Source: Candidatus Aminicenantota bacterium
GTDB lineage: Bacteria > Acidobacteriota > Aminicenantia > Aminicenantales > Saccharicenantaceae
NCBI GenBank assembly: GCA_002877915.1
Contig: PNJE01000031.1
Span: 1 to 33,875, forward strand
Direction of reading: 5' to 3'
Length of the DNA stretch: 33,875 nt
Shown here: in pieces, positions 15,437 through 26,504 of the stretch
How the letters are laid out: every line of letters begins with the position of its first letter
Position numbering within the stretch: position 1 is the stretch's first letter
Program-made: the position numbers and the translations under genes
Notes under the pieces: model-generated
Database searches by the model: none
Told to the model about the DNA's origin: nothing
The model's input: the letters and a program-made list of their open reading frames with translations, nothing else

Positions 15437-16336
15437 TTATTTTGGCCGCCGACATCCCTGGTAAATTTTTTGCCAGTATTCATCGTATAAATTGCCTATC
15501 TGGACTATGGGCTTTTCATGGGTCGTGGCATTAATAAATTCTCTTTCATTGATCATCATACCAACATGGCTAATGCCCTTTTGACCAAAGAAAACTAAAT
15601 CGCCAGCTCTTTCCTGTCCCTTGGGGACTTCCAGGAGTCCGGATTGGGTGAATTGAATATCGGCATCTCGCAATATTTCCAGGCCGCTCAGCCGGTAAAT
15701 TAATTGGACATAGCCAGAGCAGTCCAGGCCGAGAGGACTTGTTCCGCCCCAAAAATAGGGAAGTCCGAGGAAACGTTTAGCCAGGGCCACCATTTCCTCC
15801 GGGCTCAAGCGAGGCCTTTTAAAAGGAGCTTGCTTAATCTGACCATCGCCGACCTGAATATAGCCTTTCTGCCCGCTTGGCAGAGTTACTTCGCCCCAGC
15901 GCCCTTCATATTTTCCAATTTCCAGTACTGTGCTTATTGGAGCCATCGTCAGGGGTTTTTGCTTGGTCACGTCAGGCGAAGCATATATATAAGCCATCAG
16001 GCTGGTTATTTCTATTACCTGTCCTTCAGAAGCATAGGATTTCTCTCCCGGTTTATAAAGCCGAATTGCCCGGCCTTCTATCCAGCCATGGTAGGTATCT
16101 GGAGTTTCAATATAATACCAGGTAGCGCCGGCCTTATCATTTTGGGTCTTCAATATCTTGATGGTTGTTCCGATAAGAGCTTGGCTAACTACATCCACTT
16201 CTGAACTCGGATGGGAATACATATTCTCGACTGAATTAAGAACCACTCCCGACGGCAGATTTTCTTGGGTCAAGCCCGGGTTGAATAGCAAGAAAATAAA
16301 ACTTGAGAGAAACAAAAATGAGCCCATTTTTTTCAT
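15437..16336 (-). CDS. Secreted NlpC/P60 peptidoglycan endopeptidase with SH3-like domains
   Basis: The family cleaves peptidoglycan stem peptides, commonly between D-Glu and the diamino acid. Residues 1-23 are a signal peptide with no lipobox. Two SH3-like wall-binding regions follow (about 30-95 and 104-165), then the NlpC/P60 domain (about 179-297). The catalytic Cys206 is in LDCSGY and His257 in ISHVGM; the third polar residue is probably Asn269 in FINA, where His is more usual. The start at 16336 is supported by GGAGGTG just upstream; an in-frame ATG at 16405 lies upstream of the inferred promoter. The layout recalls Bacillus YkfC, and the neighbour is a dipeptide epimerase, as in ykf operons. 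Confidence 0.88.
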   Translation of the reverse strand: MKKMGSFLFLSSFIFLLFNPGLTQENLPSGVVLNSVENMYSHPSSEVDVVSQALIGTTIKILKTQNDKAGATWYYIETPDTYHGWIEGRAIRLYKPGEKSYASEGQVIEITSLMAYIYASPDVTKQKPLTMAPISTVLEIGKYEGRWGEVTLPSGQKGYIQVGDGQIKQAPFKRPRLSPEEMVALAKRFLGLPYFWGGTSPLGLDCSGYVQLIYRLSGLEILRDADIQFTQSGLLEVPKGQERAGDLVFFGQKGISHVGMMINEREFINATTHEKPIVQIGNLYDEYWQKIYQGCRRPK

Positions 16337-16354
16337 CAGCACCTCCAGGCCTAA

Positions 16355-16360
16355 ATTATA
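16355..16360 (-). promoter_or_regulatory. Perfect -10 box for the NlpC/P60 gene
   Basis: On the minus strand the sequence is TATAAT, placing the transcript start near 16348 and the gene's ribosome-binding site (16340-16346) right at the start of the message. No good -35 is seen at 16-18 bases. The box is flanked by GGCCT and AAGGCC arms (16348-16352 and 16368-16373), an imperfect inverted repeat that might be an operator. Confidence 0.45.
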
Positions 16361-16391
16361 ATAAAATAAGGCCGAGGATAAAACTTTTTTG

Positions 16392-16421
16392 TTGAAAATT
16401 ATCAAGACCCTTAGTTATACT
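16392..16421 (+). promoter_or_regulatory. Sigma-70-type promoter of the dipeptide epimerase gene
   Basis: TTGAAA at 16392-16397 and TATACT at 16416-16421 each match five of six consensus bases and are 18 bases apart. Transcription would start near 16428, leaving a leader of about 17 nt that contains AGGAGGTGG before the ATG at 16445. It is divergent from, and close to, the -10 box of the NlpC/P60 gene, so the two genes could be co-regulated from the shared 108-base region. Confidence 0.6.
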
Positions 16422-16444
16422 GAAACTCTTCAGGAGGTGGCTTA

Positions 16445-17584
16445 ATGAATCGGAAAGAGTTTTTTAAAACCTCGGGCTGGCTGCTGGCTTCGTCTTGGCT
16501 TTTCGGCCGAAAGCCAGAACTAAGGTTAAAGAAAGAAGAAACATCCAAAAAAGGTAAGGTCAAAGTCACTACCAGAATTTATGAGCTCCATCTGCGCCAG
16601 GCCTGGACTCTCTCTCGAGGTACCTGGACCACCAGGCGAAATGTTCTGGTTCGATTAGAAAAAGATGGAATTGTTGGCTACGGCGAGGCAGCTCCTATTC
16701 CACGTTATAATGAAAGTGCCGAAAGCAATCAGGCTTTTATCGCCAAGGCCCTGCCAATTCTGGAAAAAGACCTCTGGGAATATGAAGAGCGGGGGAAGGA
16801 ACTTGAGCAGTTGTTGCCAGGAGAAAATGCCGCTAAAGCCGCCCTGGACATGGCCATTCTGGACTGGATTGGTAAAAGTCTAAAAATCCCTCTTTACAGG
16901 TTTTTTGGCTTAGATAAGAGTAAAACTCTTTCAACCACTTTTTCTATCGGGATTGATGAAGTTCCCGTTATGCAGAAGACTGCCTTGGCGGCTAAAGACT
17001 TCCGGGTGTTAAAAATTAAAGTGGGGACTAAAGATGATAAGAAAATTATTGAAGGAATAAGAGAAGTTACTGACCGCCCGATCCGGGTTGATGCTAATGA
17101 AGGCTGGAAAACTAAGGAAGAAGCTTTAGAAATGATTAATTGGCTGGCTGATAAGGGAGTTGAATTTGTGGAACAGCCGCTTCCGGCCGCTAATCTGGAT
17201 GATTACCGCTGGCTAAAAGAAAGGGTAAAAATTCCAATTTTCGCCGATGAAAGTGTCCATAAGAGCCACGACATTCCAGCCCTGGCCTCCGCTTTTGATG
17301 GGATTAATGTCAAGCTGATGAAATGCGGAGGGTTGCAGGAAGCCATGAGGATGGTAGCGGTCGCCCGAGCCTTTGATTTGAAGTTAATGATTGGCTGTAT
17401 GATTGAAAGCTCCCTATCTATTTCGGCGGCTGCAGCGATAACCCCACTCTTTGATTATGCCGATCTTGATGGTAATCTCTTGATTGATAATGATCCTTTT
17501 AGAGGGGAACCAATAAAAGGCGACCGACTGCAGCTTTCTGATCGCCCAGGCTTGGGAGCGGAGCCTCTAATCCCGGATTGGTGA
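16445..17584 (+). CDS. Dipeptide epimerase (L-Ala-D/L-Glu type), enolase superfamily, with Tat-like leader
   Basis: Family members racemise the second residue of dipeptides, classically L-Ala-D-Glu from murein. The barrel carries the KxK acid/base motif at K190/K192, metal ligands D216 (VDANEG), E243 (VEQP) and D268 (FADES), the opposite-face K290 (INVKLMK), and the epimerase-type DLDG motif at 340-343. The first 35 residues precede the conserved core: MNRKEFFKTSGWLLASSWLF resembles a twin-arginine signal with RK in place of RR, followed by a short hydrophobic stretch. The strong AGGAGGTGG places the start here, so the leader is real. Substrate choice among dipeptides cannot be read from sequence alone. 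Confidence 0.85.
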   Translation: MNRKEFFKTSGWLLASSWLFGRKPELRLKKEETSKKGKVKVTTRIYELHLRQAWTLSRGTWTTRRNVLVRLEKDGIVGYGEAAPIPRYNESAESNQAFIAKALPILEKDLWEYEERGKELEQLLPGENAAKAALDMAILDWIGKSLKIPLYRFFGLDKSKTLSTTFSIGIDEVPVMQKTALAAKDFRVLKIKVGTKDDKKIIEGIREVTDRPIRVDANEGWKTKEEALEMINWLADKGVEFVEQPLPAANLDDYRWLKERVKIPIFADESVHKSHDIPALASAFDGINVKLMKCGGLQEAMRMVAVARAFDLKLMIGCMIESSLSISAAAAITPLFDYADLDGNLLIDNDPFRGEPIKGDRLQLSDRPGLGAEPLIPDW

Positions 17585-17609
17585 AAGATTATATCCAATT
17601 TTTATTTTT
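17577..17609 (+). terminator. Probable terminator at the end of the dipeptide epimerase gene
   Basis: ATTGG at 17577-17581, in the last codons, pairs with CCAAT at 17595-17599 around a 13-nt loop. It is followed by TTTTT, A, TTTTT. The stem is short but the T-tract is strong. The element overlaps the 3' end of the convergent serine hydrolase gene. Confidence 0.45.
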
Positions 17610-18522
17610 CTGAAACAATCCGGCCGTATTCACTGGATCTTTCCAGCCGATCAAAATAATGGAAAGCTAAAGCGCCTATCTTTTTAATAATTTCATTGCC
17701 ATCTACTTGAGGAGAAAGATAGGTGGTCATAATCCCTATAACATATGGATGCTTTTTGAGAAAGACCAGACCTGAATCACAACGAACCGCTTCCAGCTCG
17801 CCCGGTTTATCAGCTACGACTACACCTTCTGGAACAACTTTTTGCAAGGGGCTGTCTTTGGGCAGGGCCAGGAGATTGAAAAATTCCTGACGGAGTTCAG
17901 GGGAAAGAACCTGGCCTTTCCAGATTTTTTCCATAAGGGAAAGCATTTCTCTGGGGGTGGATATATTTTCCCGACCTTCTTCAGCCGCCTTAAGATCCAT
18001 CATCTTGCGCTGGAGCTTAGTCTGAGTTAAACCGAGAGACCGCAGTCGCTTATTTACTGCCTCCATTCCAACCCGCTCAATTAATAGGTTGGTGGCAGTA
18101 TTATCGGACAAGACTACCATCAGAACACAAAGATCTCTGATTGAAATCCGCAGGGAAGGATTTCCCAGAAAAACTAAAATCGGGCCGCCCCCCACCTTGT
18201 CCTGTGGTTTCAGGTCCAGAAATTCGTCGAGCTTTAATTTCCCCTCTTCAACTTGTTTCAGAACTTCAAGCCAAATGGCTATTTTGATGGAGCTAGCCTG
18301 AGGAAAAACTTCATTTTCATTCAAATAAAAGGCATAACCGCTGGATAAATCTTTAATCGCAATTCCTACGACTCCATCAACTGAATCTACCACCGATTTA
18401 ATTTCGGTAGCCAACTGTTTTTGCAGGAGGATGATTTTACCATCGGCCCTGGCTGACTCAGCCGAAAGTGAGCTAATAAGGGATAAAATAAATAGCCAGA
18501 TTAAAAGCTTCGATAGACGCAT
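17602..18522 (-). CDS. Exported serine hydrolase of the class A beta-lactamase superfamily
   Basis: Residues 1-26 form a signal peptide. The penicillin-recognising fold is marked by S77-S-I-K80 (SxxK nucleophile and lysine) and S139-D-N141. K239-P-G241 stands where true class A enzymes have K-T/S-G. The region RKMMDLKAAEEGREN (172-186) occupies the omega-loop position that holds the deacylating Glu, with candidates E181, E182 and E185. The length of 306 residues is normal. GGAGGG lies about 10 nt before the ATG. It may be a D-Ala-peptide hydrolase or a beta-lactamase-like protein; antibiotic resistance should not be assumed. It is read after the transglycosylase, 45 nt apart. Confidence 0.8.
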   Translation of the reverse strand: MRLSKLLIWLFILSLISSLSAESARADGKIILLQKQLATEIKSVVDSVDGVVGIAIKDLSSGYAFYLNENEVFPQASSIKIAIWLEVLKQVEEGKLKLDEFLDLKPQDKVGGGPILVFLGNPSLRISIRDLCVLMVVLSDNTATNLLIERVGMEAVNKRLRSLGLTQTKLQRKMMDLKAAEEGRENISTPREMLSLMEKIWKGQVLSPELRQEFFNLLALPKDSPLQKVVPEGVVVADKPGELEAVRCDSGLVFLKKHPYVIGIMTTYLSPQVDGNEIIKKIGALAFHYFDRLERSSEYGRIVSEK

Positions 18523-18567
18523 TTTTATTTTACCCTCCTTATTCCAGTTTGAGTTATATACCTATGG

Positions 18568-20241
18568 TCAATCAAGCTTAATGATTAGCTTCTGGCCAAT
18601 AGCCAAAATATCATTAGATAGCTGATTGTCCTTTTTTATTTTTTCTATGCTGACACCATAATTTTTGGCAATCTGAAAAAGAGTATCTCCAGCTTTGACC
18701 ACATAAGTGATGACCTTATTCTGATTCGATTGGCTTCCACTGGAACTGGCAGTTGGTGGATTTCCCTCATCATTAGCAGCCAGGAGACCTTGATTTTGCC
18801 CAGGGATTTTCAATTTTTGCCCAGGGTAAATTAAAGTAGCACTCCGCAAATTATTCAGCCTGACAATAGCCTGAACTGAAGTATGATAGCGGTGAGCAAT
18901 CAAGCCGAGAGTGTCTCCTTTTTTTACTATATGCCAGCCAAAAACCACATCCGGGGGAATCCAGTTAGGCAGTTCATTCAAGCAGGCCAAAACTTTATCG
19001 CCATAGCCAGCTGGCACCCGCAGTTCGTATTCATAATTAGGCGTTGAATCATGTCGCAGCTCGGGATTAAGGGAAATTAAAATTTCAGAACTTAAACCGA
19101 GTTTGGAGCTGAGAACTGATAGTTTAGTGGGCTTGCTCAGCTTAACCGTCTCATAGGTTATGGCTGGGTCGGGTGCCGGGAGATTAAATCCATATTTCTC
19201 CGGATTTTCTATTATTAAGAGAGTAGCAATGAACCGAGGAACATACCTGGCGGTTTCATAGGGGAGGTTGGCGAATAAGTCCCAGAAGTTATCCAGATAA
19301 TCAATTCGCTGAGCCCGAATCTCATTCTGGACGCGAATTTCCCCGCAGTTATAAGCGGCAATAGCAGTGGTCCAGTCGCCAAAAAAATCATGTAATTCAG
19401 TAAGGTATTTTATGGCTGCTTGGGTCGATTTTAATGGGTCCATTCTTTCATCTATAAATTTGTCTCGCTTAAGACCATAACGATAGCCAGTTGAGGCTAT
19501 GAACTGCCATAGTCCGAGAGCTCTCGCCCGGGAAAGAGCCCGTGGATAGAAGCCGCTTTCAATTAAAGGGAGCCAGGACAGTTCTTCTGGCAATCCCATT
19601 TTTTTCATCTGTTCGGCAATCATTCCCCGATAAAGTCCTGACCTTCTATAAGCTTCTTCAAAAAATTTTCTTTCAACAGTCTGAAAAGATTTTATTTCCG
19701 CCAGAACCCAGCTATTTTCAGTTAGAGGAATAGTCTTATGATTATTGCCGGGTGGTGGCAGACGGAAGGCATAAACTTGTTGAATTTTTTGAACTATCAG
19801 GATTCTCAGATCATGTTTTTCCTGATATAAGGGTGATTCTGGCGAAGCCTGAATTTTCAACAGGGCGGCATAAGCCTCATCCAGGAGGTTTAGGGCTTCA
19901 TCCAGGTCGCCTTTTTCCAGGGCATTCTGAGCTTCCTGATAAAGAGCATAAACCTCTTCTGCTGGGGAGCCGACCTCTTGGGCTTCAGGCTCGGTATTTT
20001 TATTTACTGATTCTGGTAGCCCAGAAGAGACCGAAGCCGGGTTTAAAGGCCGGGAGTTACTTTTACTTTCGCCGGCAGAGGAAGCTTTCTTCTCCGGGGT
20101 TTGAGTGGGCGCCGGCTTTGGCGCTTGATTGACTGATTCTTTTTCCCCGGTCGAAGCGCAACTTGCTAAGAAGAAAGCCAGGCAAGATGAAAGCCCGAAG
20201 TTTAAAAATAAAAAATAAATGCTTTTCTTTTTCATATTCAT
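18568..20241 (-). CDS. MltD-like lytic transglycosylase lipoprotein with LysM repeats
   Basis: Such enzymes cut the glycan strand of peptidoglycan to 1,6-anhydromuramyl ends. The signal ends in a lipobox LASC (Cys28), so the protein is probably lipid-anchored. A Ser/Pro/Lys-rich linker and a short helical, TPR-like stretch (about 95-155) follow. The SLT domain (about 190-345) has the catalytic Glu228 in LIESGFYP, the ALGLWQF motif and AIAAYNCG. Two clear LysM domains lie at about 437-480 and 512-556; a degenerate third may cover 362-412. Two ATGs (20241 and 20235) are possible starts, neither with a strong ribosome-binding site. It lies 65 nt after galE. Confidence 0.92.
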   Translation of the reverse strand: MNMKKKSIYFLFLNFGLSSCLAFFLASCASTGEKESVNQAPKPAPTQTPEKKASSAGESKSNSRPLNPASVSSGLPESVNKNTEPEAQEVGSPAEEVYALYQEAQNALEKGDLDEALNLLDEAYAALLKIQASPESPLYQEKHDLRILIVQKIQQVYAFRLPPPGNNHKTIPLTENSWVLAEIKSFQTVERKFFEEAYRRSGLYRGMIAEQMKKMGLPEELSWLPLIESGFYPRALSRARALGLWQFIASTGYRYGLKRDKFIDERMDPLKSTQAAIKYLTELHDFFGDWTTAIAAYNCGEIRVQNEIRAQRIDYLDNFWDLFANLPYETARYVPRFIATLLIIENPEKYGFNLPAPDPAITYETVKLSKPTKLSVLSSKLGLSSEILISLNPELRHDSTPNYEYELRVPAGYGDKVLACLNELPNWIPPDVVFGWHIVKKGDTLGLIAHRYHTSVQAIVRLNNLRSATLIYPGQKLKIPGQNQGLLAANDEGNPPTASSSGSQSNQNKVITYVVKAGDTLFQIAKNYGVSIEKIKKDNQLSNDILAIGQKLIIKLD

Positions 20242-22737: not shown

Positions 22738-25467
22738 CTAATTTTTCGGTTGTTTAAAGACCCGCAGTCCGGTATAGGCCAGCGGGGGAGGTGTATATTC
22801 TTCTCTGGATTTAGCCCGACTGATAGCGCTTAATCCCATAACTCGCCCCTGGCCCTGGCCATCCACTGACCATTCAGCTACATTTCCGCCCAGCCCAAAG
22901 ATTAAACTTTCGGTCGCCGGCGAAAATCTGTCCACGGGCAGAAGAAGAGGAGCCGACCCCGGAAGACTGGAGATGGCGGTCCAAAGCAATTGGCTATCAT
23001 CCAAATTCACCGGATAGCCAGCCCAGTAATCCAGAGTATTATCTTCCCCGCTGGCCTGAGCCAGAAGCTTCTGGGCTTCTTCCACGGTGGGTAACCGGTA
23101 GTTTTCGCCAGTTAGCTCCTTTAACCATTGAACATATTTTTGGGCTTCTTCGAAGCTAATCCCATTAACTGGATAATTGGCTGTCCCTGGTTCAAATTGA
23201 TAATTTGGATCAAAGGCTTTCCATTGAGCTCTGGTAACTTCGAAACGACCGACTTCTAAATCCTGCCATTTAACCGTCTCGGGAATGAGTTTCCCTTTAA
23301 CTATCAGGCCATAATTTTCTCCTGACCGGGCAAATTTCTGGGCTTTAAGAGCCAGGTCCAGAGGGGAACCTTCTTTCAGAGCTTCATTAGCCGGAGTCAG
23401 GGTATGGAAAAAATAGCGATCAAACCAAGCCAGTTCTTCTTCCATCTTGCGGCGTTGATGGCTGAGTTTTCTCAGGCCATGGGGTTCGCCGGGGAAGATT
23501 ATCAAGCGAACGGGGGCTTGACCCAGTTGTTGCCTCACCCGATAGTGCTCCATGCCTTGACCGAAGGGAACATTAGTATCCTCAGTTCCATGGAAAATAA
23601 TTGTTGGCACCTTTGATTCTTTAAAATAAAAGAGGGGGGATATTTTAAGATAATAGTCTGGTCTATCCCAGGGCGCACCGAGAAAATAATAATTATCAAA
23701 GCTTACCCCGAAGGCGCAGGTACCATAATCGCTGAACCAGTCAACATCGGCGGCTCCAATTCCTGCTACTTTAAAGCGCTTGGTCCAGACACTCAAGGCG
23801 ATGCTCAGAATTCCTCCATTGGACCAGCCCATAGTTCCGAGTCTTTCTGGATCAACCAGCCCCTTGGCCACCAAATAATCAATGCCTTTTTGAATATCTT
23901 CCAGGTCATAGTCATAATAATGACCCTTAATCGATTCAGAGAACTTCTGTCCGTAGCCAATTGAACCGTGGTAATTGGGCATTAAAACAAAGCAGCCTTT
24001 TTGGGCTAAAAGGTTAGGATAATAGGCATAGGACTCGTTAAAAGAATCCAGGTCAATTCCGGTTGGCCCACCATGAATATTCAAGAAAAGAGGATATTTT
24101 TTGCCTGGTTGATAATCCTGAGGATAATAAAGCAGGCCCTCGATTTCATCGTTTAAAGCTCCTTTCCACCTGATTACCTCGGTCCTGGCGAATTTCTTAT
24201 TCTTCCAGGGGGGATTTAATTCGGTAAATTGTTTTTCCGTTATAATTTTGTTTTTTTCTAAGCGGCCATAATACCACTGCCTCGGGATAGAAGCCGTGGT
24301 ATAAGAATAAACCAAGCGGTTCCCTTTTTCTGGCATTTCCAGGTTAAAGATGTGGGGATAGGGGTCGCCTTGAAGTTCTTCAAAGGTGAAGTCGTTCCCC
24401 TGTTTATAATATCTTCTCCACTTAGGAATTGCCCCATTGGCCAGCGAAACGATAAAGCCATCCTCTCGAACGACAAAACCGAATTCCATCAAACCGGCTT
24501 CCCATTTAAGGTTTATTTCTCGATATTGATTGGAACCAAGGTCGTAATAATATAAAAATTCAGCTCCGGCTGTTTCGTTGACCGGGTCGATAGTTTTCAT
24601 TACGGCGAAATAAAAGCCGCGGCTATTCAAATCCCAATGGATTCTGGTAGGTTTAAAATAGGGATCAGGGAAAATTTCCCGACTGGATTTGTCCTCCAGT
24701 TTTATCAAGAAAAATTTTGGCTTAATCTTTTTATCTACTTCGTACCTGACACTCTGGTTATTTCTGGTGATAACCAGTTTTTTATCAGGGGAAAGGAAAA
24801 AATTGGTAATCTGATCCTTATTTTCAGTGAGCCGGCGATATTTCTTTTCCTTCCAGGAATACAAAAACAGTCTTTGGGGTATCAGGTGGTCCTGGTCTTC
24901 AAAAACTATAGAGTCGTCTTTTTTCTCTTTGGCCAGGATTTCTCTCAGGCTTTTCCCTTCTCTGGCCAGTATTAGGAAATGCTCCTCATCTATCCAGTCG
25001 TAGTCTATTATCCCTGTTTCCAGGTCGGTAACTTTTACCGGTTCTCCGCCTTTTAAATCAATCAACCAGAGCTGGAGCCCTCCCACCTCTTCCCGCTCGC
25101 TTTGGCCAGATTCCTTTCGGCTGCTTAAAAAGGCAATCATATTTCCAGCGGGAGACCATTTAGGGCGGCTTTCTGAATTTTCGCCCCGGGTCAGCTGAAC
25201 AGTCTGACCATTCTGATCTAAATAGCTGAGGAAAAGGTGTGATATCCTCCCGTCTTTTTCTTTATCGGCGATGTTCTTGGTCCAGACTACTCTGCTTCCG
25301 TCGGGCGAGATGGTGAAATCAATGGCTCTTTCTTCGTTAATGATATCATCAATCGTCCAAGCAGTCGTCAGAGTCTTTTCTTTCTGGGCTAATAAGAATC
25401 CAGTCAATAAGCCAAAAGCCATTATGACCAGAATAAAGGTGGTTCTCAGCCATTTAAACTTTTTCAT
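22738..25467 (-). CDS. Exported S9 prolyl-oligopeptidase-family peptidase fused to a degenerate FGE/SUMF1-like domain
   Basis: S9 enzymes cleave peptides with a serine protease triad behind a beta-propeller. Residues 1-27 are a signal peptide. A WD40/TolB-like propeller (about 35-415) with SPDG repeats leads to the alpha/beta-hydrolase domain: oxyanion region NIHGGP (463-468), nucleophile S549 in GWSNGG, D630 in HGTEDTNVP and H663 in EPHG. Residues about 725-905 match the FGE-sulfatase fold by FEVTRAQWKAF, YPVNGISFEEAQKYVQWLK, RLPTVEEAQ, GGNVAEW and TGLRVFK. This part has no cysteine, so it cannot be a copper-Cys formylglycine-generating enzyme. GGAGG supports the start. Confidence 0.88.
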   Translation of the reverse strand: MKKFKWLRTTFILVIMAFGLLTGFLLAQKEKTLTTAWTIDDIINEERAIDFTISPDGSRVVWTKNIADKEKDGRISHLFLSYLDQNGQTVQLTRGENSESRPKWSPAGNMIAFLSSRKESGQSEREEVGGLQLWLIDLKGGEPVKVTDLETGIIDYDWIDEEHFLILAREGKSLREILAKEKKDDSIVFEDQDHLIPQRLFLYSWKEKKYRRLTENKDQITNFFLSPDKKLVITRNNQSVRYEVDKKIKPKFFLIKLEDKSSREIFPDPYFKPTRIHWDLNSRGFYFAVMKTIDPVNETAGAEFLYYYDLGSNQYREINLKWEAGLMEFGFVVREDGFIVSLANGAIPKWRRYYKQGNDFTFEELQGDPYPHIFNLEMPEKGNRLVYSYTTASIPRQWYYGRLEKNKIITEKQFTELNPPWKNKKFARTEVIRWKGALNDEIEGLLYYPQDYQPGKKYPLFLNIHGGPTGIDLDSFNESYAYYPNLLAQKGCFVLMPNYHGSIGYGQKFSESIKGHYYDYDLEDIQKGIDYLVAKGLVDPERLGTMGWSNGGILSIALSVWTKRFKVAGIGAADVDWFSDYGTCAFGVSFDNYYFLGAPWDRPDYYLKISPLFYFKESKVPTIIFHGTEDTNVPFGQGMEHYRVRQQLGQAPVRLIIFPGEPHGLRKLSHQRRKMEEELAWFDRYFFHTLTPANEALKEGSPLDLALKAQKFARSGENYGLIVKGKLIPETVKWQDLEVGRFEVTRAQWKAFDPNYQFEPGTANYPVNGISFEEAQKYVQWLKELTGENYRLPTVEEAQKLLAQASGEDNTLDYWAGYPVNLDDSQLLWTAISSLPGSAPLLLPVDRFSPATESLIFGLGGNVAEWSVDGQGQGRVMGLSAISRAKSREEYTPPPLAYTGLRVFKQPKN

Positions 25468-25495
25468 CTTTCCTCCAATTAATTCATTTTTACTT

Positions 25496-25604: not shown

Positions 25605-26504
25605 ATGAAAAATAAAAAAGGCTGGTTTTTGTCGCTGGTCGGTTTATTTCTAATAACTTCTATCCAGTTGATGGGAATCTCGGCCTTAAATTCCCGGGAA
25701 GATTTAAAAATTAATCTGGTGGAAAAAAAAATTTCAGCTCTAACCCCATCTGGGGAAATTCTTTCCTTTTATCTTAAAATTGAAAACCATGGGACCAAGA
25801 ATTTCTTTTTAGTTTCTTATCGTTATCAGGTGTTGATAAATCAGAAGGAATATTTGCGAAAGGAAATTGTTCTTGATAATCCTCTGGCCGCCTATGCTGA
25901 TCAGCCCTTGTTGATTAATTTTCCGGTAAAAATTGATTATCAATATGTTTCTCCTTACTTAAGCGGAAGTAAAAAACAGGCCAGTTGCCTGGTTATTGGA
26001 GAAATGAATTTTCAAGACGAAAGGAAAAAAACTGAGGAAATTCCTTTCAACTGGCAGATGGATTTCCCGATTTTTAATTTTCCAACTTTGAAATTTCTTC
26101 CGCTTCTGGTGAAAGATTTAACCCTGGGCGGAGCCGAGTTTGATTTTAGATTTGAGCTCAAAAATGAAAATTCCTATGATTTGCTCATCAAAAAAATTCA
26201 AGCCGAGTTGCAACTTGAAGGGAAAACCATATATCGGGGAGAGCTGCCGGGGGATAAAACTCTTTCGGCTGGGGAAGGGAAGAGGTTTTCCCTGCCTTTG
26301 ATGCTTGATTTTTTTGAGCAGGGCCGGGCCTTTCGAGATAGCCTGGAGAAAGAGACTTCCGATTTTATTCTGAAGCTTCAGATAGAAGCCGATTCAGCTT
26401 GGGGCGAGCTTTCTTTTTCTTTGGAAAAACGAGAACAGGTTAAAAAAGAATACCAAGGTGAGAGGCCAGAGGAAAATGGTCTCAACTATAATCGTTACTT
26501 ATAA
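25605..26504 (+). CDS. Exported protein with two LEA2/WHy-like domains
   Basis: Residues 1-28 look like a signal peptide (KGWFLSLVGLFLITSIQLMG core). Two similar beta-rich modules follow, at about 33-150 and 165-280. Each begins with a strand of the form F-x-L/K-I/L-x-N, namely LSFYLKIENHGTKNFFLV and FDFRFELKNENSYDLLIK, and continues with a Leu-rich strand and a basic or acidic closing segment. This resembles the WHy/LEA14 immunoglobulin-like fold seen in bacterial desiccation- and envelope-related proteins. No catalytic residues are visible. The exact role is unknown; the call rests on pattern only. Its end overlaps the glycosyltransferase start by 29 nt. Confidence 0.5.
   Translation: MKNKKGWFLSLVGLFLITSIQLMGISALNSREDLKINLVEKKISALTPSGEILSFYLKIENHGTKNFFLVSYRYQVLINQKEYLRKEIVLDNPLAAYADQPLLINFPVKIDYQYVSPYLSGSKKQASCLVIGEMNFQDERKKTEEIPFNWQMDFPIFNFPTLKFLPLLVKDLTLGGAEFDFRFELKNENSYDLLIKKIQAELQLEGKTIYRGELPGDKTLSAGEGKRFSLPLMLDFFEQGRAFRDSLEKETSDFILKLQIEADSAWGELSFSLEKREQVKKEYQGERPEENGLNYNRYL

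Follow-up and report, generated by a model that had tools for sequence, protein, structure and literature searches.

The S9 peptidases closest to the protein described here are S9C-like carboxypeptidases and acylaminoacyl peptidases (8wt1, 7ep9, 5yzn and PhAAP, 4hxg), which likewise combine a propeller with an alpha/beta-hydrolase carrying a Ser-Asp-His triad. Their structures stop at the hydrolase, whereas our protein continues for about 220 residues more, and these residues hold a domain of the formylglycine-generating enzyme (FGE) superfamily. In the active enzyme of that superfamily, the catalytic cysteine pair sits in the loop that follows the GGS motif; PvdO and EgtB, two other members, are linked to chemistry different from that of FGE, and C-type-lectin-like FGE folds bind ligands in the proteins of diversity-generating retroelements. 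The fold is shared by SUMF2 (the human FGE paralogue, 1y4j), PvdO, CalU17, ToxD and Treponema TvpA, all of which are free-standing chains in their structures, none joined to an S9 peptidase. Another relative is PorK of the type IX secretion system, whose FGE-like fold is devoid of the cysteines and of FGE activity and serves as a docking hub; this "repurposed FGE fold" was described in 2025, and PorK, GldK and GldJ are the documented Cys-less cases (PMC12421860). PorK and GldK have the Cys-less fold in common with our protein, but PorK, a ring lipoprotein, has insertions and lacks a peptidase, whereas here a trimmed version of the fold is fused to S9.

The same pair of domains has been listed before. 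Kaushik and Sowdhamini (2014) included a formylglycine-generating-sulfatase (FGS) domain among the prokaryotic prolyl-oligopeptidase architectures (PMC4522959, legend of Figure 3), so that the combination itself had already been seen. This entry gives no species, catalytic-residue analysis or clade, and the architecture is likely that of the lineage studied here. We found no description of the S9-FGE lineage, of its single origin or of the loss of its catalytic site in the open-access literature; queries that combined prolyl oligopeptidase or Peptidase_S9 with FGE, SUMF1 or DUF323 returned nothing relevant, and the fusion goes unmentioned in a 2008 survey of serine proteases.

The gene lies in a stretch of 33,875 nucleotides from a Candidatus Aminicenantota genome (contig PNJE01000031.1), hereafter the window. 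An earlier note, made from the sequence alone, had described one uninterrupted frame at 22738-25467 joining an S9 peptidase to an FGE-like domain. The ORF and Pfam matches confirmed this: the frame spans exactly these positions, on the minus strand (which the note had left unstated), and encodes 909 amino acids, with a signal-like N-terminus, a beta-propeller, Peptidase_S9 and an FGE-sulfatase-like domain in this order. Its features are as follows.

22738..25467, minus strand: whole gene, with signal-like N-terminus, beta-propeller, S9 hydrolase and FGE-like C-terminal domain (ORF, Pfam)
25471..25476, minus strand: GGAGGA ribosome-binding site, 5' of the start ATG at 25467 (sequence)
25387..25467, minus strand: hydrophobic signal-like helix, residues 1-27 (sequence; helix 4-27 in the model)
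24193..25353, minus strand: beta-propeller with PD40 repeats, residues ~39-425 (Pfam; all-beta region of the model; Foldseek matches to S9 structures)
23407..24180, minus strand: alpha/beta-hydrolase domain Peptidase_S9, residues ~430-687 (Pfam; sequence and Foldseek matches)
23821..23823, minus strand: catalytic Ser549 within GWSNGG (invariant in the family)
23578..23580, minus strand: catalytic Asp630 (invariant in the family)
23479..23481, minus strand: catalytic His663 (invariant in the family)
23308..23400, minus strand: conserved linker, residues 690-720, containing NEALK..SPL, with S701 and G720 invariant (alignment)
22753..23307, minus strand: trimmed Cys-less FGE/SUMF1-like domain, residues 721-905 (Pfam; AlphaFold2; Foldseek; profile against PDB)
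22870..22890, minus strand: GGNVAEW, FGE-family signature, residues 860-866 (sequence; profile against PDB; alignment)

The three Pfam domains for which the note had suggested a search were all matched: Peptidase_S9 at residues 483-686 (1.1e-45; 156 bits, cut-off 22.6), PD40 in two stretches (1.8e-7) and FGE-sulfatase (PF03781) at residues 739-869 (3.1e-8; 34 bits, cut-off 23.3). Residues 1-27 contain no cysteine and therefore no lipobox; judged from this signal-like N-terminus, the peptidase would be secreted, probably to the periplasm.

The hydrolase belongs to the S9 (prolyl oligopeptidase) family and is nearest in fold to S9C-type carboxypeptidases and acylaminoacyl peptidases. Besides scoring above the Pfam cut-off, it has the GxSxGG nucleophile motif, the Ser/Asp/His triad and the N-terminal beta-propeller. 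The closest full-length Foldseek matches were the S9 carboxypeptidases 8wt1 and 7ep9 (Geobacillus, Fusobacterium) and a Deinococcus S9 enzyme, TM-scores to S9 structures reaching 0.84 by target length, and 8wt1 was also the best sequence match (1.8e-47). S549, D630 and H663, the residues to which the earlier note had drawn attention, are invariant across the fusion family, and each is kept in at least eight of ten S9-only paralogues. This invariance and the fold predict that the enzyme hydrolyses short peptides through S549-D630-H663. The surroundings of the active site differ from those of S9C-like enzymes, GWSNG[GSA] and NYHGS being specific to the family, and other lineage-specific residues (Y499, N550, V575, D580, F586 and F590) lie close in sequence to the active-site motifs. 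In NCBIfam, all matches were below threshold, and the score for DPP5 (NF053518) was 143.6 bits, far under its equivalog cut-off of 900.

In one scan, the GTDB representative genomes yielded 28 loci with the fusion, at 39-79% identity, nearly all with a match that starts near the N-terminus and runs to residue 902-908 (L021 ends at a contig edge). Their titles name Candidatus Saccharicenans/Aminicenantes, KSB1, Latescibacterota, Krumholzibacteriota, Bacteroidetes, including isolate strains of Neolewinella, and MAGs labelled Bacillota and Deferribacteres, the last belonging to the phylum group of KSB1 in the collection used. A profile built from the C-terminal domain gave strong matches in 28 of 297 sampled genomes of the window's phylum, in 13 of 296 of Bacteroidota and in 10 of 82 of the KSB1 phylum, counts in which the S9 part was confirmed directly in the fetched loci only. 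Five weaker matches among the 297 genomes, which by score resemble ordinary FGE-family proteins, were excluded. These counts indicate a wide yet patchy distribution. The fusion is present in one copy per genome, in ORFs of about 880-1010 amino acids, except for three of 137 (G303), 467 (G273) and 724 amino acids (G156, where the S9 parts are split over two frames). An assembly artefact, which the note had considered, is ruled out by the identical joint in isolate Neolewinella genomes and in one complete genome. A 1546-aa FGE ORF from the same phylum (L062) reads as a kinase/WD40-type fusion outside the family. Short, high-identity peptidase fragments, with no full copy listed, occur at G026:C34:92200-92754 and G004:C18:22809-23072 and may be genes in decay or breaks in the assembly.

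A maximum-likelihood tree built on the S9 part grouped 35 fusions in one clade with 100/100 support; ten paralogues with S9 only, taken from the same phylum, fell outside it, separated by a long branch. Thus, the FGE-fold domain was gained once in our sample, in an ancestor shared by the whole lineage; the S9-only paralogues were a sample, and a sister without the FGE domain could exist beyond it. Repeated independent fusions find no support in this topology. The unusual architecture suggested in the note stands as a fusion recurring in one clade, its novelty being reduced by the 2014 survey (PMC4522959). As for tail swapping between lineages, the FGE-part tree disagrees with the S9 tree in one strongly supported case only, within the Saprospirales-type group. 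A divergent fusion of 891 amino acids (L070, G139:C327) groups with the Bacillota-labelled MAG L020 on a long branch. This anciently fused lineage is now likely annotated as just "S9 family peptidase" or "SUMF1 family".

RLPTVEEA (791-798), GGNVAEW (860-866) and GLRVF (900-904) were found where the note had placed them, and FGE-signature residues are invariant in the 25 members aligned end to end. AlphaFold2, run on the tail domain with 25 sequences, gave a confident FGE fold (pLDDT 90.6, pTM 0.88) and not the unrelated fold against which the note had warned. Foldseek matched this model with probability 1.00 to PvdO, PorK, CalU17, ToxD, SUMF2 and FGE; the significant matches, which also comprise TvpA (Treponema) and EgtB/OvoA, all belong to the FGE superfamily, and PorK was the best PDB profile match (5.9e-14). 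A chance domain match is ruled out by the curated cut-off, the invariant signature residues, the confident model and the Foldseek results. TM-scores were moderate (about 0.4-0.5), as expected because the domain is trimmed: the Pfam match covers positions 39-191 of a 255-position profile, and the C-terminal third of the profile is missing.

The catalytic site has also been lost. In an alignment with two other FGE-domain proteins, the GNVAEW motif is followed by a gap of about 15-20 residues relative to L062, and the stretch from the GGS-equivalent (GLSA) to the final GLR motif, which would hold the catalytic cysteines, is shortened. Residues 690-909 of the window's protein contain no cysteine, and in none of the 35 members does the loop behind the GGS-equivalent carry a pair of cysteines. 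The note had called the domain cysteine-free, which holds for the window and the majority of its nearest relatives, but in some KSB1-type members cysteines occur at columns 779 and 867, away from the catalytic-loop positions. Both columns are occupied in L009, L010, L014, L015, L018 and L020 (a KSB1-type subset and L020), where a structural disulfide is possible. With the cysteine site lost and the loop shortened, the tail is incapable of making formylglycine, and an FGE match in an S9 fusion should not be annotated as evidence for sulfatase maturation.

An enzymatic role akin to that of FGE, EgtB or PvdO, whether oxidation or sulfatase maturation, could still be argued from the non-FGE chemistry of the latter two and from eight sulfatase-family matches in the window's genome. 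We consider it improbable. The loop is shortened, in no member does it hold the catalytic cysteine pair, the two hallmarks of an active FGE (that pair and a full-length domain) are both absent, most of the invariant residues are scaffold signature positions of the family, together with a family-specific ENTLDYWAGY stretch, and no DinB-type metal domain accompanied the tail in the Pfam scan. In this genome, the one further FGE-domain protein found, a 710-aa ORF (L029, G000:C160:1504-2196), keeps a GGSYYC motif with no second cysteine nearby and, from its sequence, also looks unlike classical FGE.

The retired fold is nevertheless under constraint. Between the window and its nearest relative, dN was 0.143 for the S9 part and 0.142 for the FGE part, a comparison made on dN because dS is saturated, and 31 columns are conserved in at least 33 of the 35 members. 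The equal dN and the near agreement of the two trees indicate that the tail has descended along with the peptidase under equal constraint. That it is shorter than FGE might suggest a neutral or decaying appendage hitchhiking on an active peptidase, but we regard this as very improbable, considering these conserved columns, a constraint as strong as that on the S9 part and the presence of the tail in every full-length member found.

Family-specific conservation is also seen in the last S9 helix (R673, K674, E677, E678 and F687), immediately before the conserved linker, and together with the invariant linker residues it fits a fixed contact between S9 and the tail. The full-length model (pTM 0.70) has low confidence in the hydrolase part, about 50-65 at residues 580-660, and so does not set the relative placement of the domains. 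We think it fairly probable that the protein is a secreted peptidase of S9C-like type, an oligo- or exopeptidase, with a degenerate, non-catalytic FGE-fold tail, acquired once, which would be seated on the hydrolase as a fixed module and most likely provide a docking or oligomerisation surface, also shaping access to the active site. Docking and assembly are proposed by analogy with PorK, in which the FGE fold is used for docking (PMC12421860). The note had read the domain as a recruited structural or ligand-binding module, perhaps one for steering substrates or assembling the peptidase on the cell surface, two roles that are conjectural. The Cys-less FGE folds already documented in PorK, GldK and GldJ (PMC12421860) make the architecture less new than the note had suggested; the S9-FGE fusion adds a further clear case, from a protease, of this fold reused after losing its chemistry. 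A bolder version, in which the retired oxidase fold controls active-site access as a regulatory lid or assembly clamp built into the protein and defines a distinct cross-phylum S9 subfamily, seems to us rather unlikely.

The main rival to a docking surface is a tail that binds a ligand (a glycan, cell-wall fragment or peptide) and thereby targets the peptidase to its substrate. It fits nearly as well, and we hold it to be a possible, though less likely, explanation. Treponema variable protein 1 is among the Foldseek and profile matches of the tail, and genes for an NlpC/P60 enzyme with SH3, an enolase-superfamily protein (MR_MLE), a class-A beta-lactamase-like protein and an SLT-LysM transglycosylase, at 15437-20241 of the window, are kept near the peptidase within the genus and suggest turnover of cell-wall peptides. 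This neighbourhood is not kept beyond the genus, however, and, unlike diversified binding domains, the tail does not vary more than the peptidase does.

Docking on a product of a neighbouring gene gains nothing specific from synteny, in which no partner gene is conserved beside the fusion outside the genus and the genes conserved within it include housekeeping ones. A CCA-adding-type nucleotidyltransferase/HD gene begins 14 bases 3' of the peptidase gene on the same strand. On the other side, the adjoining plus-strand ORF at 25605-26504 has an LEA_2 match barely over the cut-off.
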